A stretch of DNA of 41,133 nt, from contig VGYC01000050.1 of the NCBI GenBank assembly GCA_016873095.1, positions 1-41,133 on the forward strand, read 5' to 3'. The notes beneath the pieces were generated by a model. The model did no database searches. It had not been told where the DNA came from and saw only the letters and a list, made by a program, of their open reading frames with translations. Positions 11,135 through 39,476 of the stretch are shown here, one piece after another. This DNA is from Planctomycetota bacterium (GTDB lineage: Bacteria > Planctomycetota > Planctomycetia > Gemmatales > Gemmataceae). Each line of letters opens with the position of its first letter. Within the stretch, counting starts at the first letter, position 1. The position numbers and the translations under genes are program-made.

Positions 11135-11136
11135 CG

Positions 11137-11564
11137 ATTTTTGATTTCTGATTTTTGATTTTTGATTGCAAGAATGTATGACCGAAGCGGAGATGAAGCA
11201 GCGCACCAAGCAGTTTGCGCTCCGGGTCATCAAGCTCGTCAATGCCCTGCCCAGGACAACGGCGGGGAACACGATTGGGCGGCAGCTCGTGCGCTCGGGA
11301 ACATCGGTCGGCGCCAACTATCGTGCCGCTTGCCGAGGCAGATCGCGCGCAGACTTTGTGGCCAAGCTCGGCATTGTTGAGGAGGAAGCCGATGAATCGG
11401 GATTCTGGCTGGAACTCGTGATTGACAGCGGCCTCTTGTCGCAAAAGTTGGTCCAACCGCTCCTGAAGGAGGCTCAAGAGATAGTCGCCATCATGGTCGC
11501 ATCCCGCAAAACCGCATCAAGTCGCAAATGATCAATCAAAAGTCAAAATTCAAAAATCAAAAAT
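11137..11564. mobile_element. IVP cassette bracketed by heptamer inverted repeats
   Basis: The arms 11137-11168 and 11533-11564 are a 32-bp inverted repeat with only 3 mismatches, each built of tandem TTTTTGA-type heptamers. Between them lies nothing but the four-helix-bundle gene: the left arm ends 9 bp before its ATG and the right arm begins 1 bp after its stop. The left arm begins 2 bp after the upstream gene's stop and the right arm ends 6 bp before the next gene's ATG. This is the expected look of a small cassette with terminal inverted repeats, or of an intervening-sequence-like stem carrying its ORF. The 24 nt at 11150-11173 recur identically at 14037-14060. Mobility is inferred. Confidence 0.65.
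11178..11531 (+). CDS. Four-helix bundle protein (23S rRNA IVP / S23 family)
   Basis: The 117-aa product matches the four-helix bundle family found in 23S rRNA intervening sequences: basic helix KQRTKQFALRVIKLVNALP, then NTIGRQLVRSGTSVGANYRAA with the hallmark SGTSVGANYRAA, then SRADFVAKLGIVEEEADESGFWL and a last helix LKEAQEIVAIMVAS. Homologues form pentameric bundles, and relatives (Avd) are accessory proteins of diversity-generating retroelements. Here it lies between protein genes rather than in rRNA, yet is still framed by a long inverted repeat. I chose ATG 11178 because the family starts close to this point; the Shine-Dalgarno is weak. Its molecular role outside rRNA is unknown. No reverse transcriptase is visible in the window. 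Confidence 0.85.
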   Translation: MTEAEMKQRTKQFALRVIKLVNALPRTTAGNTIGRQLVRSGTSVGANYRAACRGRSRADFVAKLGIVEEEADESGFWLELVIDSGLLSQKLVQPLLKEAQEIVAIMVASRKTASSRK

Positions 11565-14036: not shown

Positions 14037-14104
14037 GATTTTTGATTTTTGATTGCAAGAAGTCGTCGCCCGGCACCCTGTCTTGCAATCAAAAATCAAA
14101 AATC
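14037..14104. repeat. Gene-less TTTTTGA-heptamer hairpin
   Basis: Arms 14037-14060 and 14081-14104 are a perfect 24-bp inverted repeat around a 20-nt loop. The left arm is identical over all 24 nt to 11150-11173 at the left end of the IVP cassette. It lies between the lipoprotein stop and the clpP leader. It may act as a terminator-like structure or be a deleted derivative of the cassette. Confidence 0.9.
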
Positions 14105-15742: not shown

Positions 15743-17818
15743 TCACTTGGCCATCGCTGTCACGATGGGCCGTTTGCCTTCGGCAGCCCCGGCCGTCGGC
15801 GGCGTGGCGGGCTTGAGACTGCTATGCGGCCCGAGCACGGCCGGCGCCGGCGGGCAGCATGGCTGGCACACCGGGATGTACACCGGGATCTGCCGGCAGA
15901 ACTTGTAGGTCACCGTGTACGGCTCCATCCGGCAGGTCGTGAGCGGCACGCAGCGGGTCACCTCGTGCGGCACCATGCGACAGGTGACGTACGGAACCTT
16001 GCACACCTTCTCCTGCGTCACGACCTTGCACTTCTTCACGGTCACCACCTGGCAGCGTTCCTCCGGCACCATCTTGCAGACCTGGTACGGCACCTTGCAC
16101 GTCCGCGTCTCCGGAACCATCTCGCACTTCTTGCGCGTTTCCATGCGGCAATGATGCTCGGGAACCATGCGGCAGACCGTGAACGGAATCTTGACGCACT
16201 TCTGCTCGGGGACCATGATGCACTTCTTGCAAGTCATCATCTTGCAATGGTGCTCCGGGATCAACCGGCAGGTCGTGTACGGAATCTTCTTGACCTTGTC
16301 CTCGCGGACCAGGTAGCACTTCTTGCAGGTCACGACCTTGCAGTGCTGCTCGGGCAGCATCTTGCAGGTGTAATGGCACACCTTGCGAACCCGTTCCTCC
16401 GGGACCATGATGCACTTCTTGCAGTTCACGATCTTGCAGTGCTGCTCGGGGACCATGCGGCACGTCGTGTAGCAGAGCCGTTTCACCTTCTCCTCGGGCA
16501 CGACATAGCAGCGGCGGTGCACGACCATCTTCGTGTGGTGCTGCGGGATCAGCTTGCAGGTGGTGCAGGCACACTTCTTGTAGGTGGTGGCCGGGATCAC
16601 CTTGCACGTGTGGTACTTCACGACATGGCTATGCTCCTTCTGGACATAGCGGACGCAGCGGACCACGCGTACCTCTTCGCGCGGCACGAAGGTCTTCTTG
16701 CAGGTCCAGTGGCCGGGCAGCTGCACCGGGCAGCACGTCACGGGGCCCGGGCAGTATCGCTGCTGGCAGGTGCACGGGTCGAACACCCACGTGCCCGGCT
16801 GGCGGCAGCACTTCTGCACGATCGGACCGGGGCAGTACACCGGCTCGCTGTGCCAGCAACCCGTTTGCACCTTGAACTTGCGCTCGGTGTAGATCGGGTG
16901 ATAGCTGTAGCTCTTCACCACGCAGGAGCGCGGCTCCAGGACCGTCTTGTAGGTCGTCATCGGCACCTGGTACACATGCGTCGTGTACTTCGGCGAGTAC
17001 GTCGTCCAGTGGACCGGGACCTTGTACTCCTGCACCTTCTGGTGGTACACGGTGTAGCGCTGCTCGCACACATGCTTCTTGTATTCCGGATGGTACGTCG
17101 TCCAGCGGTGCGGGACCTGGTAGTCCTGATACATCGGCTTGTGCACGATGTACTTGCAATCGCGCTCGTGCTTCTCGTACACCGGATGGTGCGTGGTCCA
17201 GCGGTAGAGCACCTGGTAGGTGCTGTATGCCGGCTTGTACGTGCAGTAACGGCATTCCTTGACGTGATTGATGTACTGCGTCTTGTAGGTGGTCCAGCGA
17301 ATGGGCACCTGGTACTCCTGGAACGTCGGCTTGTACACGCAGAAGCGGTGCTCGCGGTAGAACTGCTTGTACTCCGGCCGGTAGTTCGTCCAGTGCACCG
17401 GGACCTGGAATTCCTTCCAGACCGGCTTCATGCAGGTGAAGCACTGGTCGCGGAACTTGGTCTCGTAGCACGGCCGCATGACGACGTACTTCTGCACGAC
17501 ATCATGGCAGGACCACAGCGGCACGTTGATGACGTAGCGCTGCTCCTTGAAGCGTTGCTCGTAGACCGGTCGACAGACGGTCTCCTTGCAGTGTTTCATC
17601 ACGGTCTGGTAGACCGGTTTGTAGCGGATGCAGCAGCGGTCCTCGACGACCGTCTGGTAGCAAACGCGGTAGCTGATGGCGGGCATGCAACATTGTTCGG
17701 GGCTACAGCAAACGGGGGGATAGCCGCCCGCGCCGCAGTGAGCCGCCCGCACCGACTGCCCGGGGCCCGCCAGGCCGACCAGGGCAATGAGCATGGGGGT
17801 GATCTTACGCAGCCTCAT
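15743..17818 (-). CDS. YTV-type Cys/Tyr-rich envelope repeat protein
   Basis: The 691-aa protein starts with a signal peptide (1-25) and is extremely rich in Cys, Tyr, Val, Lys and His. It has two repeat regions. Residues 138-265 hold four 32-residue units with QVPxxWTTY, PxY, and YKP landmarks, plus a partial fifth. Residues 420-611 hold six units, also of exactly 32 residues, of the different pattern TCRMVPEQHC, then CKKCIMVPE. A Cys/Pro/Gly-rich linker joins them, and the tail is Pro/Ala-rich. This matches the large cysteine-rich YTV-domain proteins of planctomycetes, considered structural components of their proteinaceous envelope, probably disulfide cross-linked. The ATG at 17818 follows GGAGG. 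A terminator closes the gene at 15685-15717. Confidence 0.8.
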   Translation of the reverse strand: MRLRKITPMLIALVGLAGPGQSVRAAHCGAGGYPPVCCSPEQCCMPAISYRVCYQTVVEDRCCIRYKPVYQTVMKHCKETVCRPVYEQRFKEQRYVINVPLWSCHDVVQKYVVMRPCYETKFRDQCFTCMKPVWKEFQVPVHWTNYRPEYKQFYREHRFCVYKPTFQEYQVPIRWTTYKTQYINHVKECRYCTYKPAYSTYQVLYRWTTHHPVYEKHERDCKYIVHKPMYQDYQVPHRWTTYHPEYKKHVCEQRYTVYHQKVQEYKVPVHWTTYSPKYTTHVYQVPMTTYKTVLEPRSCVVKSYSYHPIYTERKFKVQTGCWHSEPVYCPGPIVQKCCRQPGTWVFDPCTCQQRYCPGPVTCCPVQLPGHWTCKKTFVPREEVRVVRCVRYVQKEHSHVVKYHTCKVIPATTYKKCACTTCKLIPQHHTKMVVHRRCYVVPEEKVKRLCYTTCRMVPEQHCKIVNCKKCIMVPEERVRKVCHYTCKMLPEQHCKVVTCKKCYLVREDKVKKIPYTTCRLIPEHHCKMMTCKKCIMVPEQKCVKIPFTVCRMVPEHHCRMETRKKCEMVPETRTCKVPYQVCKMVPEERCQVVTVKKCKVVTQEKVCKVPYVTCRMVPHEVTRCVPLTTCRMEPYTVTYKFCRQIPVYIPVCQPCCPPAPAVLGPHSSLKPATPPTAGAAEGKRPIVTAMAK

Positions 17819-18402
17819 CTCGGGCCTCCGGAAGTGAAACGACAGTGAAAGGGTCACACCTGTGCCAAAGCCAGCGCGGCCTGCCGACACTCGCGGAACT
17901 GCATTGAGCGCGGCAAACCGTTCAGGAGAAATGTGCGCGATGGGGCAATCCAGGCCAAATTTTCTTTAGAGAAAATCCAGGCAATCTGACCACGACACCC
18001 CGTCCTGACAAGACTTTAGCGCAGACGTGGAGTTTTCCGCCTTGCTGGACCGGCAAAGCTGGGGCGAATGACGGGTGTAAGGAGGGAGAGGATTGTGCTA
18101 GTTCCCCGCTCGAGTTCGCCGCTCGCTAGCCCCGTGAACGGGGCTGGGCATTAGCCCGCCTTCGCCTGGCTTGCTGGTTTAGTGAGGTAATCGAGCACGT
18201 CCCGTTGCATCTCTTCGAGTTCCGTCCTGGCGAGCATTCTTGTGACTTGCTTGACCAGACAACCACGGCAAGCCAGAGAAACCCCCAGTTGCCGAAAAAT
18301 CGGTGTTGGTTTCCAACGGTATCCGTCATTAAAGTAGGGGCTACTCCTCGTTCCCAGGCTCTGCCTGAAACGAGGTCCATACACACGGAAAGGCGGTCGA
18401 TC
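17819..18402. other. Long intergenic region with small hairpins
   Basis: No gene is supported in these 584 bp. They contain AATCCAGGC as a direct repeat flanking the hairpin ATTTTCT/AGAAAAT (17959-17965 with 17970-17976), a perfect 8-bp hairpin AGCCCCGT/ACGGGGCT with 2-nt loop (18128-18145), and a further element at 18346-18375. Promoters for both divergent flanking genes must lie here. Confidence 0.5.
18346..18375. repeat. CCTCGTTCCCAGGC hairpin, imperfect
   Basis: CCTCGTTCCCAGGC and GCCTG-AAACGAGG form an imperfect inverted repeat with a TCT loop, ending about 10 bp before the Shine-Dalgarno of the gene at 18403. The right arm lacks bases that would complete the pairing, so it looks like a decayed copy. 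Confidence 0.6.
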
Positions 18403-21519: not shown

Positions 21520-21534
21520 CATTCGCAATACTCT

Positions 21535-21626
21535 GGGTGCCATGCCCACGGCTTTGCGTGGGCATGGATGGCAAACTGATAGTTGCAAGCGAAGCATGGC
21601 CACGCAAAGCCGTGGCCATGGCACCC
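21535..21626. repeat. Family C twin-hairpin repeat, copy 1
   Basis: Arms 21535-21567 and 21594-21626 are inverted with 3 mismatches in 33. Each arm alone is also a perfect 10-bp hairpin with loop GCTTTG/CAAAGC: CATGCCCACG with CGTGGGCATG at left, CATGGCCACG with CGTGGCCATG at right. It lies between a stop codon (21519) and the Shine-Dalgarno (about 21657) of the next gene. Confidence 0.9.
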
Positions 21627-21667
21627 ATGGCACCCGATTTCGCTCTTATTCTGACGAAGGACACGTA

Positions 21668-22851: not shown

Positions 22852-22952
22852 GTGCCATGGCCACGGCTTTGCGTGGCCATGTTTACCCGGTTTCCCTCAG
22901 CTTGGTCGCGGCGTGAAGCCGTCATGCCCACGCAAAGCCGTGGGCATGGCAC
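22852..22952. repeat. Family C twin-hairpin repeat, copy 2
   Basis: Arms 22852-22881 and 22923-22952 match inverted over 28 of 30 positions. Here the left arm carries the GGCC-type hairpin (22856-22881) and the right arm the CCC-type (22923-22948), the reverse of the order in copy 1. It lies between the stop at 22819 and AAGGGAG before the next ATG. Confidence 0.9.
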
Positions 22953-32032: not shown

Positions 32033-32078
32033 GTGCGCGAAACCGCAAGCGGTGGATGCGACGTTCGCTTGCGCGCAC
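32033..32078. repeat. Family A repeat, deleted form
   Basis: GTGCGCGAAACCGCAAGCG (32033-32051) faces CGCTTGCGCGCAC (32066-32078). The outer and inner stems pair, but the right arm lacks the five bases opposite AAACC, leaving a bulge. It lies between the plus-strand 56-aa gene and the minus-strand phage-like block. Confidence 0.7.
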
Positions 32079-32096
32079 CGGCTCGCGTGTGAGTTC

Positions 32097-32291
32097 TCAG
32101 TCCTTGCTCACGCACCGGCAAGCGAATCCCGGCCGGCCGTTGATTTGCCTGGCGATCAACCAGCCGCGGCAGCGCGGGCAGCGGGCAGTGAGGTAGTCGT
32201 CGTCGCGGCCACGCTCGCGGCGCCGGACACGCGGACGCAAGCGGCCGACCAACGCCGTTTCGGAGCCGAGCCATTGTCGGATGCAGACCAT
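32097..32291 (-). CDS. Small zinc-ribbon protein
   Basis: The 64-aa product is basic, with a C-terminal CPRC-WLIARQINGRPGFACRC arrangement: four Cys spaced as a zinc ribbon. The ATG at 32291 follows GGAG. It is the last gene of the minus-strand phage-like block, 22 bp after the terminase-like gene. It may bind nucleic acid; no family is identified. Confidence 0.6.
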   Translation of the reverse strand: MVCIRQWLGSETALVGRLRPRVRRRERGRDDDYLTARCPRCRGWLIARQINGRPGFACRCVSKD

Positions 32292-32313
32292 GTGGTGTCT
32301 CCAGGTGAGAATG

Positions 32314-32781
32314 TCAGCGGTGTGTTTCCTGAGATGACTGCAACGCGGCGGCGGCGCGTGCCCGCGCCTCCGGGTAGGGGGCCAGCGCCTCCAGCAGCCT
32401 GCGGCACACGTCCATGAACTCCGGCAGCTCAAAGACGTTGGGCGCAGCCGGCGCATCGTTCTCGATCGGCCGGGCGACGCCGGTCCAGCCGGGATCGCCC
32501 CGTTTCTCGCGCCCCGGACCGTGCTCGAGCCAGTCGCGGGCATGATTCTTGTAGGCATGCGCCTCGGCCAGCAGCCGGGCCTGCGCCATGGCGGCATCCA
32601 CCTGGCGCGCGAAGTCTGCGAACGACTCCGGGGCGTCGGCCGCGCGGCCCAGGCGCAGCCAGCGCCGATACTGCTTTCGCGAGACGCCCCAGGCTCGTGC
32701 CGCCACGTGGCCGTACGCCCCGGCGCGAATGCCCGAGACAATCTGGCCTGTCAACTCGGCGCTTGGAGGCGTGTCGTTCAT
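32314..32781 (-). CDS. HTH protein, terminase-small-subunit-like
   Basis: The 155-aa product begins with a helix-turn-helix pattern, ELTGQIVSGIRAGAYGHVAARAWGVSRKQYRRWLRLG (residues about 9-45), then helices containing ESFADFARQVDAAMAQARLLAEAHAYKNHARDWLEHGPG. HTH followed by an AYKNHARDWLEHGPGREK segment is characteristic of small DNA-packaging or terminase-associated proteins in planctomycete phage-like regions. No large terminase gene is adjacent in the window. It begins about 5 bp past the stop of the ATPase-GNAT gene, so the two are coupled. Function inferred from fold and context. Confidence 0.55.
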   Translation of the reverse strand: MNDTPPSAELTGQIVSGIRAGAYGHVAARAWGVSRKQYRRWLRLGRAADAPESFADFARQVDAAMAQARLLAEAHAYKNHARDWLEHGPGREKRGDPGWTGVARPIENDAPAAPNVFELPEFMDVCRRLLEALAPYPEARARAAAALQSSQETHR

Positions 32782-32785
32782 GATG

Positions 32786-33946
32786 CTACTCGAGCATGGC
32801 ACGGGACATGGTGGGCGGCAGCGCCGGGCCGACGTACTCGAAGCCGGCCGTCAGCCGCGTGGCGGCGTGCCGCAGCCGGCCTTCGCGGCCGCGCGCCATG
32901 GCCGGAACGCGATGCATCCGCCAGTGCGGCGACCGCCATCGCGCCTGGATCATCGCCGGATGCGTCGTCGTCGATAATGCCCGATAGCCCAGCCCTCGCC
33001 ACAGCGAGGCCACGAAGTCGCTGAGCGCGTTACCGATGCCGACTCCCTGATAATCCGGCAACGTCACCGTGCGATGCTCGCGCCGCCCCTTCGGCCCGGT
33101 GCCCACGAACGGCAGCCACGCGGAGAAGGCAACGGCCCGGTTTACGTTTCGCGCTCGCGCCCCCTCGTCATCGACAGGATCGACAGGATCCGCCGAACGC
33201 GAAACGCAAGCCCAGCTCGCCAGGAAGCACACCGCTCCCGGCGCCAGGGCGTGGCTCAGATAGTGATGCGGTGCGAACAGCGGCCACGCCGATGCCTGGC
33301 AGCGAACGATGTCGAGGCTGATGGGCGGCCTTCGCCGAAGCCGCCTCCGGGCAAAATGGTTCTCCGCCGGACGATACACCCAGTCCGGCTGCAACCAGTC
33401 TTCCACGTCTTCATGGCAGGTGACGGCGACGAACTGCAAGCCGCGTTGCCGCACGGTCCGCGCCACTGCCGCGCTACCCACCCGCGCCACCGTGCGGTCG
33501 ACGACGCTGGTGTATTCGTCGAAGACGACGGGCTGTCCCGGCCCCGCCGTGGCCAGCGCCAGCGCGAGCGCCACGCGAAACTGCTGGCCGGTCGACAGCA
33601 CGGCGAACGGCCGCAACCACGCCGGCGGCGCTGAGAATCCAACCGCCGACAGCAACGCGACGATGTCCTTGATCGACATCGCCGCCGGAAACAGATCGAC
33701 AACGGCCGCATGCGGTTTCGCGCTCGCCGTGTCGCAGGCCGTCTCCCCGAACCAGCGCCGGGCAATGGTCGTCTTGCCGCACCCCGACGGCCCGACGATG
33801 AGCCCGACGTTCCACGGCGACTCCGCGAGCGGCAGATTCACCTCCCATTCGACCCGGCTGCAATTCGCGGCCGGCAGGTCGAACATGCCACGCAGCTGCT
33901 GCACGCGCGGCGTGGCCGTGATCGTTGACTCAACGGATACCTTCAT
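32786..33946 (-). CDS. ABC-type ATPase fused to GNAT-like domain
   Basis: The 386-aa protein has a Walker A motif (GPSGCGKTT, 52-60), an ABC signature-like LSTGQQFR (117-124), Walker B QPVVFDEYTS (138-147) and a switch His in VTCHED. It has no transmembrane part. From about 205 a GNAT-like acetyltransferase domain follows (AVCFLASW, RAVAFSAWLPFVG, and an acetyl-CoA-loop-like YQGVGIGNALSD, 299-310). Residues 246-269 are encoded exactly by a family B dispersed repeat and interrupt the turn between two GNAT strands. Such ATPase-acetyltransferase fusions sit next to ParB-like genes in phage-like loci; the substrate is unknown. GGAGAGAG precedes the ATG. Confidence 0.75.
   Translation of the reverse strand: MKVSVESTITATPRVQQLRGMFDLPAANCSRVEWEVNLPLAESPWNVGLIVGPSGCGKTTIARRWFGETACDTASAKPHAAVVDLFPAAMSIKDIVALLSAVGFSAPPAWLRPFAVLSTGQQFRVALALALATAGPGQPVVFDEYTSVVDRTVARVGSAAVARTVRQRGLQFVAVTCHEDVEDWLQPDWVYRPAENHFARRRLRRRPPISLDIVRCQASAWPLFAPHHYLSHALAPGAVCFLASWACVSRSADPVDPVDDEGARARNVNRAVAFSAWLPFVGTGPKGRREHRTVTLPDYQGVGIGNALSDFVASLWRGLGYRALSTTTHPAMIQARWRSPHWRMHRVPAMARGREGRLRHAATRLTAGFEYVGPALPPTMSRAMLE
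33140..33211. repeat. Family B inverted repeat inside a coding sequence
   Basis: Arms GTTTACGTTTCGCGCTCG (33140-33157) and CGAACGCGAAACGCAAGC (33194-33211) pair with few mismatches; the spacer includes TCGACAGGA twice. The whole element is 72 bp, encodes 24 residues in frame, and starts and ends on codon boundaries of the ATPase-GNAT gene. Confidence 0.9.
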
Positions 33947-33972
33947 CGCTCTCTCCGGCATGATTCCGGTGC

Positions 33973-34527
33973 TCACGCCACCTTGGCCTCGCACTTGCGG
34001 CCTTCGCCCTGGAAGCGCTCCAGCAGTGCGAGCTGCTCCGGCTCGCTGCCGCACTCGATGACGATCAGGTATCGTTCCGGCAGGCCGGGCAGGTCGTCGA
34101 GCGCTTTTCTGGTCTGCCGGCCGGCTTCTTCGATCGCTTCCCAGAGTGACTTGACGGCGGCCGAGTCCTGTGCCGCGATCGTCCGCAACTCGGCGAGCGC
34201 GTCCACGTCGTAGCCGGCCATCTGCGCCAGCGGATCGATGGCCAGCAACAGCGCCCGCGCCTCGGCGTCGCTGACGTCGAGCACCTCGACCTCGACCTCG
34301 TGCTCCGGGTCCATGTCGGCGCGTAGATGGCCGTCGATCAGCTTGAGCCGGCCATCGGGCAGCTCGTACACTAGCAAACTGCGCGCGAAGCCGATCTCGT
34401 CGTAGAGATGCGCCAGCGCTTGCCGCTGCGTGTCGGAGTGCAGCCGCGGGTTCAGCTCGTGACGGACCAGCTCGCCGGCGCGGAGGCGCACATGGCGAAC
34501 GATGCGATTGCGAAGGGGCTTGGACAC
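33973..34527 (-). CDS. ParB-like nuclease-domain protein
   Basis: The 184-aa product has a ParB/Srx-type N-terminal domain: LVRHELNPRLHSDTQRQALAHLYDEIG, LPDGRLKLIDGHLRADM with the family's DGHLR motif (65-69), and VEVLDVSDAEARALLLAIDP. The rest is helical and then EYLIVIECGSEPEQ-like beta (PERYLIVIECGSE). Such proteins in phages and mobile elements are thought to have CTPase or nuclease activity and to act on DNA or as modifying partners. It lies 26 bp before the ATPase-GNAT gene on the same strand, with AGGAGA before its ATG. Confidence 0.75.
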   Translation of the reverse strand: MSKPLRNRIVRHVRLRAGELVRHELNPRLHSDTQRQALAHLYDEIGFARSLLVYELPDGRLKLIDGHLRADMDPEHEVEVEVLDVSDAEARALLLAIDPLAQMAGYDVDALAELRTIAAQDSAAVKSLWEAIEEAGRQTRKALDDLPGLPERYLIVIECGSEPEQLALLERFQGEGRKCEAKVA

Positions 34528-34547
34528 GACGTTCTCCTATTCCGGCG

Positions 34548-34600
34548 GAGCCCGAAGCGTAAGCGAGGGACACGGCCACCCTCGCTTACGCTTCGGGCTC
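34548..34600. repeat. Family F inverted repeat (CCCGAAGCGTAAGCGAGGG)
   Basis: A perfect 22-bp inverted repeat, 34548-34569 with 34579-34600, closes a 9-nt loop. It lies between the protease stop (34617) and the Shine-Dalgarno of the ParB-like gene (about 34535). The same element when read as protein gives the SPKRKRG string often seen in spurious planctomycete ORFs. Confidence 0.9.
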
Positions 34601-34616
34601 TGACGTACTGCGTCCT

Positions 34617-35309
34617 TCACTGCGTCAGCTGCGCGCTTTGCCTGGGCAGCGGCATCGCCTCTTGCTTCGGCATGTTCTTGAAGCGCGCCAGGAACGTGAG
34701 GACGGCGGCGTGGCTGACGTAGACGCCGCGGCCGTCGGGGCCGCGCTCGTAGCCCTGGACCACGCCCAGCAGCACGCGGGCGCGAACGTCGATCAGACCG
34801 CCGCCGCTGCGGCCATGCCAGGGCTTCTCGCGCGTGAACGTCGTCCAGTCGCGCGACTCGAGAATGGTGGCAACGCGTCTGGTGACCGGCCAGCGGCCGT
34901 TGTCGTAGCCGCATGACCACACGATCGGCCCCGGCTTGTGGCCGGCCAGCGCCACCGGCATAAAGTGAAACGGCCCGTGCTCGATCTCGATCAGCGACAG
35001 GTCGAGATCGTCATCCCAGCCCAGCAGCCGGGCCGTTGCCTTCTTCCGAGCCGCGTAGACCTGCACGGGAGCGTCGATGAGCAAGGGCCGCTCGCGCTCC
35101 TCCGCGGCTGGCTCGCCCCAGCCGTCGCGGAACATGTGAGCACAGCCCAGCACCCAGCTTCGCCGCGCCTCCGTGGCGATGACCGTGCCGGAAGCGCCGT
35201 GACTCCTGATGTGCACCGTCGCCAGCGCCGGATCGTCCGCCGGCGCCAGGGCATGCAACCGCGCGGCGCAGATCGCCAGACCGATGAATACCAGCGTGAG
35301 TCGCTTCAT
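34617..35309 (-). CDS. Secreted trypsin-like serine protease
   Basis: The 230-aa product has a signal peptide (1-20) and a compact trypsin/HtrA-like domain. The triad is visible: H58 in WVLGCAHMF, D103 in WDDDLDLSLIEIE and S168 in HGRSGGGLID. GASGTVIATEARR precedes the His strand as in this family. No PDZ domain follows, so it is not a classical HtrA. A secreted protease inside a phage-like block is unusual; it could be a cargo gene or could process an exported product. The ATG follows AAGGAGA. A family B repeat lies just upstream and a family F repeat just downstream. Confidence 0.8.
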   Translation of the reverse strand: MKRLTLVFIGLAICAARLHALAPADDPALATVHIRSHGASGTVIATEARRSWVLGCAHMFRDGWGEPAAEERERPLLIDAPVQVYAARKKATARLLGWDDDLDLSLIEIEHGPFHFMPVALAGHKPGPIVWSCGYDNGRWPVTRRVATILESRDWTTFTREKPWHGRSGGGLIDVRARVLLGVVQGYERGPDGRGVYVSHAAVLTFLARFKNMPKQEAMPLPRQSAQLTQ

Positions 35310-35325
35310 GGATGTCTCCTTGCCG

Positions 35326-35390
35326 GGTTTACGTTTCGCGCTCGGTGGATCGGGTCTTCGACAGCAGCCTCCGAGCGCGAAACGTAAACC
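35326..35390. repeat. Family B inverted repeat
   Basis: A perfect 20-bp inverted repeat, 35326-35345 with 35371-35390, contains GTTTACGTTTCGCGCTCG and a 25-nt loop with GGATCGGGTC. It ends 3 bp from the upstream stop codon (35394) and starts 4 bp before the protease Shine-Dalgarno. Confidence 0.92.
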
Positions 35391-35393
35391 TGG

Positions 35394-35582
35394 TCATTGC
35401 CGGTTGCCAAAATAGTGTTCCAGCTTCAGGTCGATGTGGTGGATGTAGCGTTCCAGGCTTTCGACCTTCTTCTCGATGTCGGCAACCTTGCCGACGATGC
35501 CGCAGGCAGCCAGGATGGTCGGCAGCGCGATGGCGCCAATGAACCCCGCCAGCCAGCTCTTCTTGCTTTCTGCGTTGGACAT
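35394..35582 (-). CDS. Small membrane protein, holin-like
   Basis: The 62-aa product has one hydrophobic helix (WLAGFIGAIALPTILAACGI, about 9-28) and a C-terminal amphipathic/coiled-coil helix (KVADIEKKVESLERYIHHIDLKLEH). Size and layout resemble phage holins or small membrane regulators, but no family motif is clear. GAGGAG precedes the ATG. It lies between structural-type genes and the secreted protease. Confidence 0.55.
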   Translation of the reverse strand: MSNAESKKSWLAGFIGAIALPTILAACGIVGKVADIEKKVESLERYIHHIDLKLEHYFGNRQ

Positions 35583-35598
35583 GGGAATGCTCCTCAAG

Positions 35599-35685
35599 AA
35601 AACCAGAAACTAGAAACCAGAAACTAGAAACAAAACAGCTGAAAGGTCTGAGGCGTCTGGTTTCTGGTTTCTAGTTTCTGGTTTT
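35599..35685. repeat. AGAAACC/AGAAACT-heptamer inverted repeat
   Basis: A perfect 26-bp inverted repeat, 35599-35624 with 35660-35685, is made of tandem heptamers AGAAACT and AGAAACC. The loop is 35 nt. It begins 1 bp after the upstream stop (35687) and ends a few bases before the GAGGAG of the next gene. Confidence 0.93.
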
Positions 35686-35686
35686 G

Positions 35687-36037
35687 TCACAGGTATGTTG
35701 TCGGCCAGTTGACAGCGGCGCCGGCGATGCGTTGCAGGTAGATGCGCTTGTAGTTGCCGACGCGCTCGACCCAGATGACGATGAAACGCGTGCCGTTCTG
35801 GTCCGGGACATAGACGCTGTCCTGGGAGCCGAGCAGCGACTGGGCATCGAGGCGGCCGGCGTCGCGGACATCCGTCGCTTTGGGAACGGTGAGGATGTGC
35901 GTGAACATCAGCCCGCCGCCAAGGCCCTCGCCGCGCTCCAGACCCAGGCGAAAGGCCGGCACGAGCGTGCCCGAAGCTGTCGCCGCCGGCGCCGCCGGCG
36001 GCGCCGAGCCGGACCGATAGATGGCGATGGTGGGCAT
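35687..36037 (-). CDS. Phage-block protein, paralogue 1
   Basis: The 116-aa product has a Gly/Ala-rich middle and a C-terminal beta-strand pair, QDSVYVPDQNGTRFIVIWVE and NYKRIYLQRI. The same strand pair ends the 122-aa protein at 36150-36518, so the two are tandem paralogues that diverged strongly at the N-terminus. I recognise no named family; the position after the head-tail connector suggests a small tail or capsid component. The ATG follows GGAGAG. Confidence 0.6.
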   Translation of the reverse strand: MPTIAIYRSGSAPPAAPAATASGTLVPAFRLGLERGEGLGGGLMFTHILTVPKATDVRDAGRLDAQSLLGSQDSVYVPDQNGTRFIVIWVERVGNYKRIYLQRIAGAAVNWPTTYL

Positions 36038-36046
36038 ACACTCTCC

Positions 36047-36128
36047 GATTGCAGATTGCAGATTGCAGGTTTGAGACGGCACATTGCAGACCAGCGAGAG
36101 ACGTTCTTGCTGTCGCCAATCTGCGATC
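36047..36128. repeat. TTGCAGA-heptamer repeat
   Basis: GATTGCAGATTG (36047-36058), part of a three-unit TTGCAGA tract to 36069, faces CAATCTGCGATC (36117-36128), pairing over 11 of 12 positions. A further isolated ATTGCAGA lies between. The arms are shorter and more decayed than in the other heptamer elements. It fills the gap between the two paralogues. Confidence 0.7.
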
Positions 36129-36149
36129 CGGTCACACGTTCTCCGTCGG

Positions 36150-36518
36150 TCAGGCGACGGCCGAGCCCCAGATGCGTTGCAGGTAGACACGCTTGACGTC
36201 GGCGAGGCTGCCCCAGGAGGTGCGCTCGACCCAGACGACGAAGAAGCGCGTGCCGTTGCGATCGGGAATGTAGACGCTGTCGCCATTGCCCGGGTCGTAG
36301 TTCATGCTGGCCGGCACACCGCGATCACGCACGTCCGCGTTCAGGTCCACGATCATGAGGTGGGAGCAATGCAACGCGCCGCTGCGCTCGCGTTCCTGTC
36401 CGGCCTCGAACTGTGGAATCAGCACGCACGGCACGCCGGCCACGTCCGGGGTCAGCGGCGGCAGCCGCCCGCCGCGGTAGATGTCGCAGGTGTTGTTGGC
36501 GGTCGCGGGCAGGCTCAT
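36150..36518 (-). CDS. Phage-block protein, paralogue 2
   Basis: The 122-aa product contains LIPQFEAGQERERSGALHC and ends with GDSVYIPDRNGTRFFVVWVE and VKRVYLQRIWGSAVA, matching the C-terminus of the 116-aa neighbour. Both probably fold as small beta-rich virion-type proteins; the function is unknown. GGAG precedes the ATG, and the gene starts 27 bp after the head-tail connector stop, without a repeat in that short gap. Confidence 0.6.
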   Translation of the reverse strand: MSLPATANNTCDIYRGGRLPPLTPDVAGVPCVLIPQFEAGQERERSGALHCSHLMIVDLNADVRDRGVPASMNYDPGNGDSVYIPDRNGTRFFVVWVERTSWGSLADVKRVYLQRIWGSAVA

Positions 36519-36545
36519 GAATTCTCCATTCGTGACAAGCGCCGG

Positions 36546-37415
36546 TCACACCTCGTGGCGGCGATACGGTCGCAGCAACTCGACCACGCCCGGCGGCATG
36601 GCGCCGATGATCGAGCGCGAGGCGACGCCGGGAACCGCCTCGTGCGACAGGCCGGGATCGCGCTTCGACGCCCAGAAGCAGGCGGCGACCCACTGGGCAC
36701 ACGCTTCCTGCACGTCCTCGGGCACGTGCAGGTAGCCGGCCGTGTATTGCACGCGGTAGTTGTTCACGCCGCACGACCAGCTGCCGCTGGTCATCAGCAG
36801 CCAGCCGCGCGGATCGAAGTCGTACGAGGACAGCTCGCCGACGTGGATCGTCAGCTCCGCCCAGGCCGCGCGGGCGTTGAGGGCGCCGCGCGAGGTCACG
36901 CCGTCGCCGTAGCTCGGCGGCGACCACAGGTCGAGCGCCGGCCACAGTCCGTAGTCGCCGGCAACGCTGCCGGCCACCTCCGCCGTCCAGCCGTTGCCCA
37001 GGGCTGCAATCGCCGTCGCCAGCGCCTGCAGCGTGACATGGTTCGCGTAGGTCAGGCGACTCGAGGACACGACGCCGGACGCAACGCGCACCAGCAGCAA
37101 GCAGGTGCTCTGCACGCTGATGCGCGCCTGCTGATTGGTGGCCGTGTCCGTGTTCTTCACGCGGAGCACGGTTGCCGGATGCTGGCGCACGCTCTGCACG
37201 CTGATGAGCGGGTCATTGCGGAGAAACAGCCGCAGGGCGCCGTTGCCGCTGTGCACCTCGTCGTGATCGCGGGCGACGAATTCGCGGCGGCAATGCTTCT
37301 GGACCGCCGTCGAGATGCCGGCGATGAGCGCGTCCAGCATCTGGTTCTCCGCCGCCGTCGCGGAGAGGTTGTTCAGGTTGCGGATGGCACGCTCGCGGGT
37401 GATGAGGTCGGGCAT
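36546..37415 (-). CDS. Phage head-tail connector-like protein
   Basis: The 289-aa product has N-terminal helices (ERAIRNLNNLSATAAENQMLDALIAGISTAVQ) and the strand motif CRREFVARDHDEVHSG. It ends with YTAGYLHVPEDVQEACAQWVAACF and KRDPGLSHEAVPG. This is the pattern of gp6-like head-tail connector proteins, which form the ring joining portal and tail. An inserted domain (about 90-200) makes it longer than the simplest members. No portal or capsid gene is visible upstream, so the block looks incomplete or rearranged. AGGAGT precedes the ATG. Confidence 0.7.
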   Translation of the reverse strand: MPDLITRERAIRNLNNLSATAAENQMLDALIAGISTAVQKHCRREFVARDHDEVHSGNGALRLFLRNDPLISVQSVRQHPATVLRVKNTDTATNQQARISVQSTCLLLVRVASGVVSSSRLTYANHVTLQALATAIAALGNGWTAEVAGSVAGDYGLWPALDLWSPPSYGDGVTSRGALNARAAWAELTIHVGELSSYDFDPRGWLLMTSGSWSCGVNNYRVQYTAGYLHVPEDVQEACAQWVAACFWASKRDPGLSHEAVPGVASRSIIGAMPPGVVELLRPYRRHEV

Positions 37416-37431
37416 GACAGACTCCTGTCGG

Positions 37432-37494
37432 GTTTACGTTTCGCGTTCGCGCGACCCGATCCCTGACAGGATCGCGCGAACGCGAAACGTAAAC
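37432..37494. repeat. Family B inverted repeat
   Basis: A perfect 23-bp inverted repeat, 37432-37454 with 37472-37494, has core GTTTACGTTTCGCGTTCG and a 17-nt loop containing GACCCGATCC-like sequence shared with the copy at 35326. It ends 2 bp from the upstream stop (37497). Confidence 0.93.
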
Positions 37495-37496
37495 AA

Positions 37497-37823
37497 TCAC
37501 GCGATTTCCTGTTCCAGGATCAGCTGTCCGCGCGCCAGGCTGATCTCGTTGCCGGCGTCGTAGCGGCGCAGTTCCCAGACGTAGTCCTGCGCATCGAGTG
37601 CCTGCGTGTCGGCCTTGGCGAGAGCAACCTGGCAGACGCCGCGGCCCGCGTCGCTGATGGTGATGCCGCTGCCCACCGTCTTGGTGATGCGGATCGTCCC
37701 GCCGATCGAGTCGCGCACCTGGAAGCGCATGCTCCAGCCCGTGACCTCCTGCGGCGGCGCCATGCTGAACACCAGCGTCAAATCCTGCGACCGCACGATG
37801 CGAATGGTTTGCTCGGGGGCCAT
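37497..37823 (-). CDS. Phage-type beta-rich structural protein
   Basis: The 108-aa product is beta-rich with TIRIVRSQDLTLVFSMAPP, GWSMRFQVRDSIGGTIRITK, and AQDYVWELRRYDAGNEISLARG. This is the pattern of N-terminal baseplate-upper-protein (BppU)-like domains that decorate tails. It lies upstream of the head-tail connector gene on the same strand, with GAGGAG before the ATG. The assignment is by pattern only. Confidence 0.6.
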   Translation of the reverse strand: MAPEQTIRIVRSQDLTLVFSMAPPQEVTGWSMRFQVRDSIGGTIRITKTVGSGITISDAGRGVCQVALAKADTQALDAQDYVWELRRYDAGNEISLARGQLILEQEIA

Positions 37824-37852
37824 GATCGCTCCTCATCGACACAAACAAGCGT

Positions 37853-37911
37853 CGTTGCAGCTCGCTCGGCGGTGTCGCACGCGTAGTCGCGCGCGAAACC
37901 GCGAAGCAACG
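37853..37911. repeat. Family A inverted repeat, decayed copy
   Basis: CGGTGTCGCACGCG (37870-37883) pairs with CGCGCGCGAAACCG (37888-37901) at 12 of 14 positions, and CGTTGC/GCAACG (37853-37858 with 37906-37911) pairs outside. It lies between the stop at 37917 and the Shine-Dalgarno of the next gene. Confidence 0.75.
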
Positions 37912-37916
37912 TTCCA

Positions 37917-38435
37917 TCACCCATGTCTCTGCGACACGAGGTTGAGGCGCGGCTGGTAATCCATGTTCAGGGGCAGCGTCGCCGCGTGCTGCATCGTCAG
38001 GTGCCGGCGTTGCTCGGTGGTCATGAACAGTGCCACATGACTGTCGCAGCGTGCCGACAATGCCGGCCGGTTCACCGCGTTCATCCACAGGAGCAGCCGC
38101 CTGCCGACGACGGGCATGCCCTGGCCTTCGCGGCCGGGCCTGGTGAAGAACCAGGCGCTCCGCGCCCGGCCCGGCGGCGGCACGCGATTGACGGCGCTGA
38201 TCGAACAGGGCGGCAGCCGTTCCGGATGGGGGATGGCCTCGCGGCGCGGCGGCAAGACGCTGACCCACCCGGGCGAGCGGCGCAGACGATTGACCGACAC
38301 GACGCACCGCGGCGGGATACCCCGCTGCTGCCGGCGTGGCGGCGTCGGCCAGGCCACGACGCCGCAGGTCCGCCGAAAGCGGTTCAGCCGTTCCCTGGCC
38401 TGGGTGCGGTTGCGCTGGTGGCGGTTTTGTGGCAC
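37917..38435 (-). CDS. Arg-rich protein of the phage-like block
   Basis: The 172-aa product is strongly basic (many Arg and Pro) and not similar to anything I recognise. Reality is supported by very GC-rich third codon positions and by tight coupling: a GTG start at 38435 directly follows the stop of the 38439-38888 gene, whose last codons supply GAAGAG as Shine-Dalgarno. The basic N-terminus may bind DNA. It could be a small minor virion or adaptor protein. Confidence 0.55.
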   Translation of the reverse strand: MPQNRHQRNRTQARERLNRFRRTCGVVAWPTPPRRQQRGIPPRCVVSVNRLRRSPGWVSVLPPRREAIPHPERLPPCSISAVNRVPPPGRARSAWFFTRPGREGQGMPVVGRRLLLWMNAVNRPALSARCDSHVALFMTTEQRRHLTMQHAATLPLNMDYQPRLNLVSQRHG

Positions 38436-38438
38436 GGG

Positions 38439-38888
38439 TCACTCTTCGAGATACAGGTTGATGCTGACGGTCTGGTTCTGTGCGGCCGTCACCTGGATGC
38501 CCATCTTGTTGCCGCCCTTCAGGACGATCTCCTCGCCGGGCGGGAAATACACGACCAGGCCGGTCTGCGGGTGGACCTCCCAGATCTTGAAGACGTTGCC
38601 CAGCGTCGGCTCGGCGCTGTAGGCGATCTTGCCGGTCGTCTGGATGGTCTCGCTGTCGTCCTCGTTGTTGTTGTAAAGCGTGCCGGTCGAGCCGGTGCCG
38701 TCGCTGGTGAAGCGATAGAACTGGATCTTCGCCGGCGTGTCGGTCGGACTGGTCCCCTTGAAGAAGACCTCGATGCCCTTGATCTTGACGCGATAATTCG
38801 CGGCCGCGACCACGGTGATCGGCGTCTTGGCCGTCCCCGCCGACAGCGACACCTCGCCGGACGGATAATGAAGGTTGAGGCCTGCCAT
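38439..38888 (-). CDS. Phage tail-type structural protein
   Basis: The 149-aa product is beta-rich (ANYRVKIKGIEVFFKGTSPT, IQFYRFTSDGTGSTGTLY, KIWEVHPQTGLVVYFPPGEE, NQTVSINLYLEE). This pattern is common for small structural proteins encoded near tail genes in prophages. AGGAGC precedes the ATG. It follows the truncated gene at 38960 and is coupled to the Arg-rich gene. Confidence 0.6.
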   Translation of the reverse strand: MAGLNLHYPSGEVSLSAGTAKTPITVVAAANYRVKIKGIEVFFKGTSPTDTPAKIQFYRFTSDGTGSTGTLYNNNEDDSETIQTTGKIAYSAEPTLGNVFKIWEVHPQTGLVVYFPPGEEIVLKGGNKMGIQVTAAQNQTVSINLYLEE

Positions 38889-38907
38889 GATTGCTCCTGA
38901 TGAAGAG

Positions 38908-38954
38908 TTTTCAGTTTTCAGTGTTCAGTACCAGACCGCACACTGAAAACTGAA
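38908..38954. repeat. TTTTCAG-heptamer inverted repeat
   Basis: A perfect 14-bp stem (38910-38923 with 38941-38954) lies in a tract of TTTTCAG/TGTTCAG heptamers, with a 17-nt loop. It fills the gap between the stop at 38960 and the AGGAGC of the next gene. Confidence 0.88.
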
Positions 38955-38959
38955 CACTG

Positions 38960-39349
38960 TCATGTGATGATCTGGACCACATCCGCGAGGTCGTCGTCGC
39001 TGCCTGGGGCGAATCTCGGTTTCATGCCGAGGGCGATGACGCAGGCGGGGCCGCCGGTGCTGTTGCCGGTGATGGCGCGGCCCTTGACGTAGCGCATGCC
39101 GGCCGACAGCTCGGGCGCCTTGAGGTTGATGACGATCTGCTTGTTGTCGTTGTTGGAGGCGTGGGCCGCCAGCTGCGTCGCCGCCTTGCCGCTGATGTCC
39201 GTGTAGGTGCCGCCGGAAGTCGCCGACTCCTGCAGCTTGAAGTCGATGGTCTCGGCCGCCATGTCACCCAGGAGCAGGATGAACATGACCTCTTCCCACT
39301 TCTGCAAGTGGAGAGGGAAAAAAACCATAAAAAAACCGCCAAGGTTCAT
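38960..39349 (-). CDS. Phage structural protein, probably 5'-truncated
   Basis: The C-terminal 105 residues look like a genuine virion protein: ILLLGDMAAETIDFKLQES, SGGTYTDISGKAATQLAAH, NNDNKQIVINLKAPEL, GMRYVKGRAITGNSTGGPA, and DDDLADVVQII. The N-terminus is doubtful. From about 39310 upstream the DNA becomes T-rich and low in GC, and the frame reads an unlikely FFMVFFPLHL. The ATG at 39349 gives 129 aa; the frame stays open to 39508 in sequence that belongs to the opposite-strand gene. The likely explanation is that an insertion or deletion removed the true 5' end and any upstream capsid genes. Confidence 0.55.
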   Translation of the reverse strand: MNLGGFFMVFFPLHLQKWEEVMFILLLGDMAAETIDFKLQESATSGGTYTDISGKAATQLAAHASNNDNKQIVINLKAPELSAGMRYVKGRAITGNSTGGPACVIALGMKPRFAPGSDDDLADVVQIIT

Positions 39350-39476
39350 CACACTTGTTGCCACTTTCCCCCGATAGGATTGGTAGGCGGGGTGTCCCCT
39401 TGCGGATTCCTGAAACCCTGGTACGATGCGGATAGGAGGCCGAACAAGGAACCTTTTTTCTCGAAAAGGGGGCAAG

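Follow-up and report, generated by a model that had tools for sequence, protein, structure and literature searches.

Hairpins at the gene junctions of a phage-like block in a Gemmataceae genome are probably gene-less insertion elements of two kinds

A phage-like block of genes on the minus strand of a planctomycete contig raises the question of why hairpins should stand, junction after junction, between the stop codon of one gene and the Shine-Dalgarno site of the next. The window, by which we mean the whole stretch of 41,133 nucleotides analysed here (contig VGYC01000050.1 of assembly GCA_016873095.1, from a member of the Gemmataceae), corresponds to contig C50 in a draft genome of 8.36 Mb and 548 contigs; the block, at window 32314-39352, includes head-tail adaptor (phrog_442), ParB-like, trypsin-like and ATPase/acetyltransferase genes. 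The explanation that we favour, with a probability of roughly 0.8, is that the junction hairpins are gene-less insertion elements of two kinds, one moved by Y1 (REP-associated or IS200-like) transposases and the other linked to genes of the PF05635 family, both tolerated between stop codon and Shine-Dalgarno site. On this explanation an apparent regulatory pattern becomes a record of repeated insertion.

A preliminary description had placed hairpins at named junctions between positions 32033 and 38954, and inverted repeats are present at all of these coordinates. When RNA folding is compared with dinucleotide shuffles and expressed as z, five of them, all on the minus strand like the remainder, are strong (z -6 to -11, with fold energies of -26 to -50 kcal/mol). 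These are a heptamer hairpin that separates the phrog_28483 gene from the next and has TTTTCAG/TGTTCAG arms (38906-38958, z -6.0), a family B hairpin with perfect 23-bp arms in the 81-bp gap that parts the phrog_1084 gene from the head-tail adaptor gene (37432-37494, z -11.4), a heptamer hairpin with AGAAACY arms, 30 bp at 97% (35599-35685, z -10.7), a second family B hairpin with perfect 20-bp arms (35326-35390, z -9.1) and a family F hairpin with perfect 22-bp arms (34548-34600, z -9.2). The imperfect repeat at 37853-37911, of the dispersed family A (GCTCGGCGGTTTCGCGC type), is moderate (z -3.3), and two others are weak and not distinct from the shuffles, namely a degenerate TTGCAGA heptamer repeat that includes GCAAGAA (36047-36128, z -1.4) and a family A-like repeat past the last gene of the block (32033-32078, z -1.0). 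The block hairpins begin 1-16 nt past the stop codon and finish 16-20 nt ahead of the start codon, which bears out the placement first described. The same placement had been proposed for three sites elsewhere in the window; it holds at 21535 and 22852, and no inverted repeat was found at 18346. The hairpins had also been called unrelated to one another, which is only partly right, as the two family B hairpins share arms and three others are of the heptamer type.

Are such hairpins peculiar to the block? Genome statistics, drawn from some 2 Mb of sampled contigs in which genes were called by a home-made program self-trained on codon usage, indicate otherwise. Inverted repeats were scored without gaps (+1/-2, loop up to 80) and accepted at a score of at least 14; in 841 kb, 70 were intergenic and 5 coding, against 0 and 1.4 per set of block-wise dinucleotide shuffles. 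Hairpin density was alike in mid-size contigs and in the largest-contig baseline (0.080 v 0.077 per kb), which served as a check on bias in that baseline. Across 1.64 Mb, hairpins were found in 87 of 498 co-directional and 17 of 92 convergent gaps of at least 60 bp and in just 6 of 186 divergent (promoter) gaps, a downstream-of-gene bias like that published for REP elements (PMC3733652). Throughout the genome, unrelated genes are separated by further members of families A, B and F, of REPIN-like families and of several heptamer families: exact copies of the family B arm GGTTTACGTTTCGCG number 29, spread over many contigs, and the heptamer pair TTTTCAGTGTTCAG occurs 116 times, with none for the reversed-pattern control of either. 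The genome-wide spread of these families rules out a phage feature specific to the block. The block is nevertheless locally rich: of its 6 co-directional gaps measuring 45-160 bp, 5 have a hairpin, whereas elsewhere 35 of 314 such gaps do (Fisher p 1.3e-4, for a block that was picked for its richness). Contig C15 of the same genome likewise has 5 hairpins in 7 kb; in the relative G012 the block shows no clear enrichment over background (0.55 v 0.46 per kb), and the backgrounds of G020 and G026 are too small or too contig-biased for this comparison.

It is conceivable that inverted repeats were made locally, by template switching during replication, rather than by insertion of dispersed elements. 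The arms within one copy are often identical while copies diverge, and template switching may still homogenise arms. As the origin of the hairpins it is very improbable, given that families are shared across many contigs and have copies flanking transposase genes, and it is largely refuted already by the empty sites described below.

A second alternative is that the hairpins are functional RNA elements, such as attenuators or stability and processing sites, selected at the operon junctions of the block. Their very stable folds, constant position, co-directional bias and local richness all speak for it. However, when the stems in co-directional gaps are read in the sense of the transcript, their mismatches comprise 98 G-U and 98 A-C pairs; an excess of G-U would be expected if pairing in RNA were selected, and no selection at the RNA level is seen. 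T-tract terminators, defined by a GC-rich stem with a run of T behind it, number 5 against 4.0 in shuffles, with none among the strong hairpins. On these two counts attenuators and terminators are rejected, and with them the attenuation suggested at the outset. Moreover, the hairpin families are common to unrelated genes across the genome, and six relatives (G010, G011, G022, G027, G023 and G002) carry the block without junction hairpins. No Rfam match was obtained for the hairpins and no tRNA was found. We consider a selected RNA function quite unlikely; protection of mRNA ends could be a side effect of the hairpins.

The constant position between stop codon and Shine-Dalgarno site is best read as insertion tolerance, another of the original suggestions, because sites without the hairpins exist, copies occur genome-wide, and coding sequence and divergent gaps are avoided. 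At the phrog_1084/head-tail adaptor junction, where the window has its family B hairpin, the stop and start codons of relatives G026 and G010 overlap and there is no hairpin. A further family B copy, at 33139-33216 (minus strand), lies within the ATPase/acetyltransferase gene as a 22-codon in-frame insertion, adding 22 residues to a conserved protein, and is missing from the orthologues of all four relatives compared, which is direct evidence that family B inserts. The gap left when a hairpin is removed does not differ significantly overall from ordinary gaps (p 0.09), which neither supports nor weakens insertion.

What, then, was inserted? For the first kind of element the hairpin families are associated with Y1 genes. 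In locus L196 a perfect 21-bp family B hairpin lies between the upstream stop codon and the start of a Y1 gene, and a family B arm lies on the downstream side, between its stop codon and the next gene. In locus L045 a RAYT gene has a perfect 35-bp hairpin on either side; these two hairpins are of the family that the window holds as a REPIN-type hairpin (GTGCCATGCCCACGGCTTTGCGTGG) at 21534-21627 and a second copy at 22852-22952, both on the plus strand. The L045 protein reaches the curated RAYT cut-off (81.9 bits against 80 for NF047646); the transposases of L196 (38 bits) and L170 (23 bits) are below it, and both are Y1 proteins by profile A1. F-type hairpins like that at 34548-34600 adjoin Y1 genes in loci of relatives only (L167-L170), and Y1 genes are common in the relatives. 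From this association we infer that family B, family F and the 21534/22852 family belong to the Y1-linked kind and spread by transposition. Two features that define REPIN/RAYT systems recur here, dispersed multi-copy and mainly intergenic inverted pairs, and a Y1 gene flanked by the same family (B in L196, the 21534/22852 family in L045, F in relatives only), and the first kind is an already known kind of element. A GTAG or CGTC tag at the REP foot was recognised by eye in some hairpins of the genome and its relatives and is not evident in block families A, B and F. At locus L197 (G000:C143, 1455-2787) an internally deleted, truncated Y1 gene remnant lies between GTTTAGCGGGGAGCC arms, with intact hairpin copies at the junction of the remnant and at a neighbouring operon junction; we read this locus as a snapshot of decay from an autonomous to a gene-less element.

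The heptamer hairpins lead to a different gene. On the plus strand of the window itself, a gene at 11166-11531 encodes a four-helix-bundle protein (23S_rRNA_IVP, PF05635, E 3.4e-17) and lies between inverted GATTTTT heptamer arrays at 11136-11167 and 11536-11564, forming an element at 11136-11564; a gene-less hairpin that shares with this element both the heptamers and an inner GCAAGAA end is found at 14037-14104, also on the plus strand. Likewise, the TTTTCAG heptamers of the junction hairpin at 38906-38958 are those that flank the PF05635 element of locus L181, whose gene (E 2.1e-33) has heptamer arrays on both sides. All four PF05635 genes first found in sampled Gemmataceae DNA adjoin heptamer arrays. 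Among short-period arrays in the sampled 2 Mb or so, those of period 7 are distinctively intergenic (27 of 29), those of period 14 being probably the same arrays. The GCAAGAA inner end occurs in 4 of 21 heptamer hairpins against 0.5 expected, so that its conservation is suggestive only. In the orthologous block of relative G029 the head-tail adaptor gene has beside it a truncated antisense PF05635 gene with GGGTGAA arrays on both sides, and a nearby junction holds a gene-less GGGTGAA hairpin. Genomes with heptamer hairpins in the block have 4-6 PF05635 genes and those without have 0-1 (4 v 7 genomes, Fisher p 0.003, with post hoc grouping). The gene-less heptamer hairpins appear to belong to PF05635 elements.

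This association extends far beyond the Gemmataceae. One scan of 84,980 genomes yielded 80 PF05635 loci from many phyla, 78 of them with both flanks. Counting as inverted any pair of 200-nt flanks with an inverted match of 12 or more, we found inverted flanks at 57 of the 78 loci. The controls were 170 other open reading frames from these loci, of which 10 had inverted flanks, and 76 mismatched flank pairs, of which 2 did (p 1e-21). The short period that fitted best was 7 in 54 flanks and 8 in a further 8, with no other period represented, and period-7 arrays were present in both flanks of 12 of the 78 loci and of none of the 170 control frames. Arrays also flank most of the PF05635 genes on plasmids of cyanobacteria, Riemerella and Azospirillum; they are mostly inverted, some direct and some weak.

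Sites that are filled in one place and empty in another show that elements of the second kind insert. The plasmids of Nostoc sp. ATCC 53789 carry two paralogous cassettes with PF05635 elements at different junctions, each junction being empty in the other cassette; an element lies between cas10 and cmr3 in Picosynechococcus PCC 7003, and the site is empty in PCC 7002; nrdB|nrdA provides a further filled/empty pair; and the TraM junction, compared across plasmids, occurs with a gene-bearing element, with two different gene-less heptamer versions and in an empty form. In locus L298 a PF05635 gene is split by a gene-less heptamer hairpin of 182 bp, and L296 holds a near-identical, uninterrupted copy of that gene. 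Because of these pairs, L298/L296 among them, arrays and hairpin can be seen to move as a unit that does not need a gene of its own. At L298 506-675 this hairpin holds a further palindromic stretch, making a nest of repeats.

It could be argued that Y1 transposases move the heptamer hairpins in trans, as they would the REP families, and that the PF05635 gene is a passenger or has inserted at a hot spot. The two kinds do share a niche and a genome, and Y1 genes are common in the relatives. However, no Y1 locus examined is directly flanked by heptamer arrays, the L298 hairpin, which has an array at each end, went as one unit into coding DNA that was free of arrays, and the flanks of PF05635 genes are mutually inverted far above control. 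Movement in trans by Y1 proteins is accordingly unlikely.

Several observations weigh against two kinds of insertion element as the explanation. A transposase partner was not found for family A. At the threshold used, 21 of the 78 PF05635 genes are without inverted flanks, a few have direct arrays, and period-7 arrays also occur near 23 of the 170 control frames. At the TraM site about 40 bp have been replaced instead of an element being cleanly inserted, and no empty site at nucleotide level was found for the window's own heptamer hairpins, the relatives being too distant. Transposition was not observed, and target-site duplication is not consistent.

According to the model that we propose, non-autonomous elements would land throughout the genome, and most of the survivors would be those lying past a stop codon and ahead of the following Shine-Dalgarno site, because neither a reading frame nor a promoter is broken there; the near-constant distance to the start codon may reflect selection against hairpins over the ribosome binding site. 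For the first kind, Y1 (HUH) single-strand transposases of the RAYT/IS200 superfamily would be the agents of movement, and what they move would be inverted arms in pairs, of the REPIN or terminal-inverted-repeat type. Those of the second kind, inverted heptamer arrays, would be the gene-less form of elements that bear a PF05635 four-helix-bundle gene between the same arrays, with 23S rRNA intervening sequences as the known rRNA-borne form of this anatomy and the PF05635 protein putatively helping movement. Among solved structures PF05635 proteins match 2gsc, a five-bundle protein, and published comparison relates the family to Avd of diversity-generating retroelements (PMC10053308). Since Avd serves reverse transcriptase in those retroelements, we favour, as a lead rather than a result, a route for the second kind through RNA or a cDNA hairpin.

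A bolder proposal, for which we see an even chance, is that heptamer inverted repeats with a PF05635 gene constitute a widespread, unrecognised class of bacterial mobile element that has no known transposase, with the gene-less hairpins as its miniatures, the 23S rRNA intervening sequences as its rRNA-borne copies, and an Avd-like protein suggestive of movement through RNA or reverse transcription. Among open-access papers, the scope of a search that took in neither subscription journals nor most preprints, none was found that links PF05635 to heptamer inverted repeats outside rRNA. The explanation by two kinds of insertion element offers a testable origin for heptamer repeats between genes in many bacteria, and it places the gene of the orphan 23S rRNA intervening-sequence protein in a genome-wide context, as a gene that elements carry. 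PF05635 genes inside operons such as cas loci may be insertions and not functional partners. Two cyanobacterial plasmid loci, L208 and L200, have PF05635 genes inside CRISPR-Cas operons, at cas10|cmr3 and cas6|cas4, with an empty site for the former. A PF05635 gene (23S_rRNA_IVP) between cas10/cmr2 and cmr3 has been listed among CRISPR-Cas-associated functions (PMC3936711); such published cases are probably insertions of this sort, and the functional association with Cas may be an artefact of insertion.

The block itself is possibly domesticated or akin to a transfer agent. Among 37 genomes from the same family 23 have homologues of its adaptor gene, as against 0 of 22 from outside it, and no integrase was seen in the part examined. 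Elsewhere in the window, 15743-17818 is a gene built of degenerate 48/96-bp coding repeats.

How do these elements compare with known systems? REP/REPIN sequences with RAYT (TnpA-REP) and TIR repeats with TIRYT are likewise small, palindromic, dispersed and intergenic, often in inverted pairs, lie mostly in co-directional or convergent and rarely in divergent gaps, and pair a specific family with each Y1 gene; such systems have been reported in Planctomycetes too (PMC3733652, PMC6006769). The present elements differ in that the inner hairpins of families A and B are weak and a clear GTAG tag is lacking from both, that no partner turned up for family A, and that some of the Y1 genes fall short of the RAYT cut-off. 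Cyanobacterial heptameric short tandem repeats and the TAACTGA repeats of Beggiatoaceae are also intergenic 7-base arrays near start or stop codons, but are mostly direct and, as far as searched, have neither a PF05635 link nor an inverted-pair element (PMC4679880, PMC4692102). In contrast to the CRISPR-Cas association of PMC3936711, the empty PCC 7002 site fits chance insertion. A comparable anatomy is that of the 23S rRNA intervening sequence, a type of insertion that lies inside an rRNA gene and is excised by RNase III; in Coxiella burnetii it has an S23p open reading frame with tandem heptamers alongside, and terminal inverted repeats (PMC4990558). The window and L181 elements share the PF05635-type frame of about 120 amino acids, the terminal inverted repeats and the adjacent heptamers, and the gene-less hairpins of the block have a counterpart in known rRNA insertions that lack the frame. 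Unlike the rRNA insertions, no copy inspected lies inside an rRNA gene; the elements described here stand between, or in, protein-coding genes, are spread genome-wide and across many phyla, and include many gene-less heptamer hairpins.

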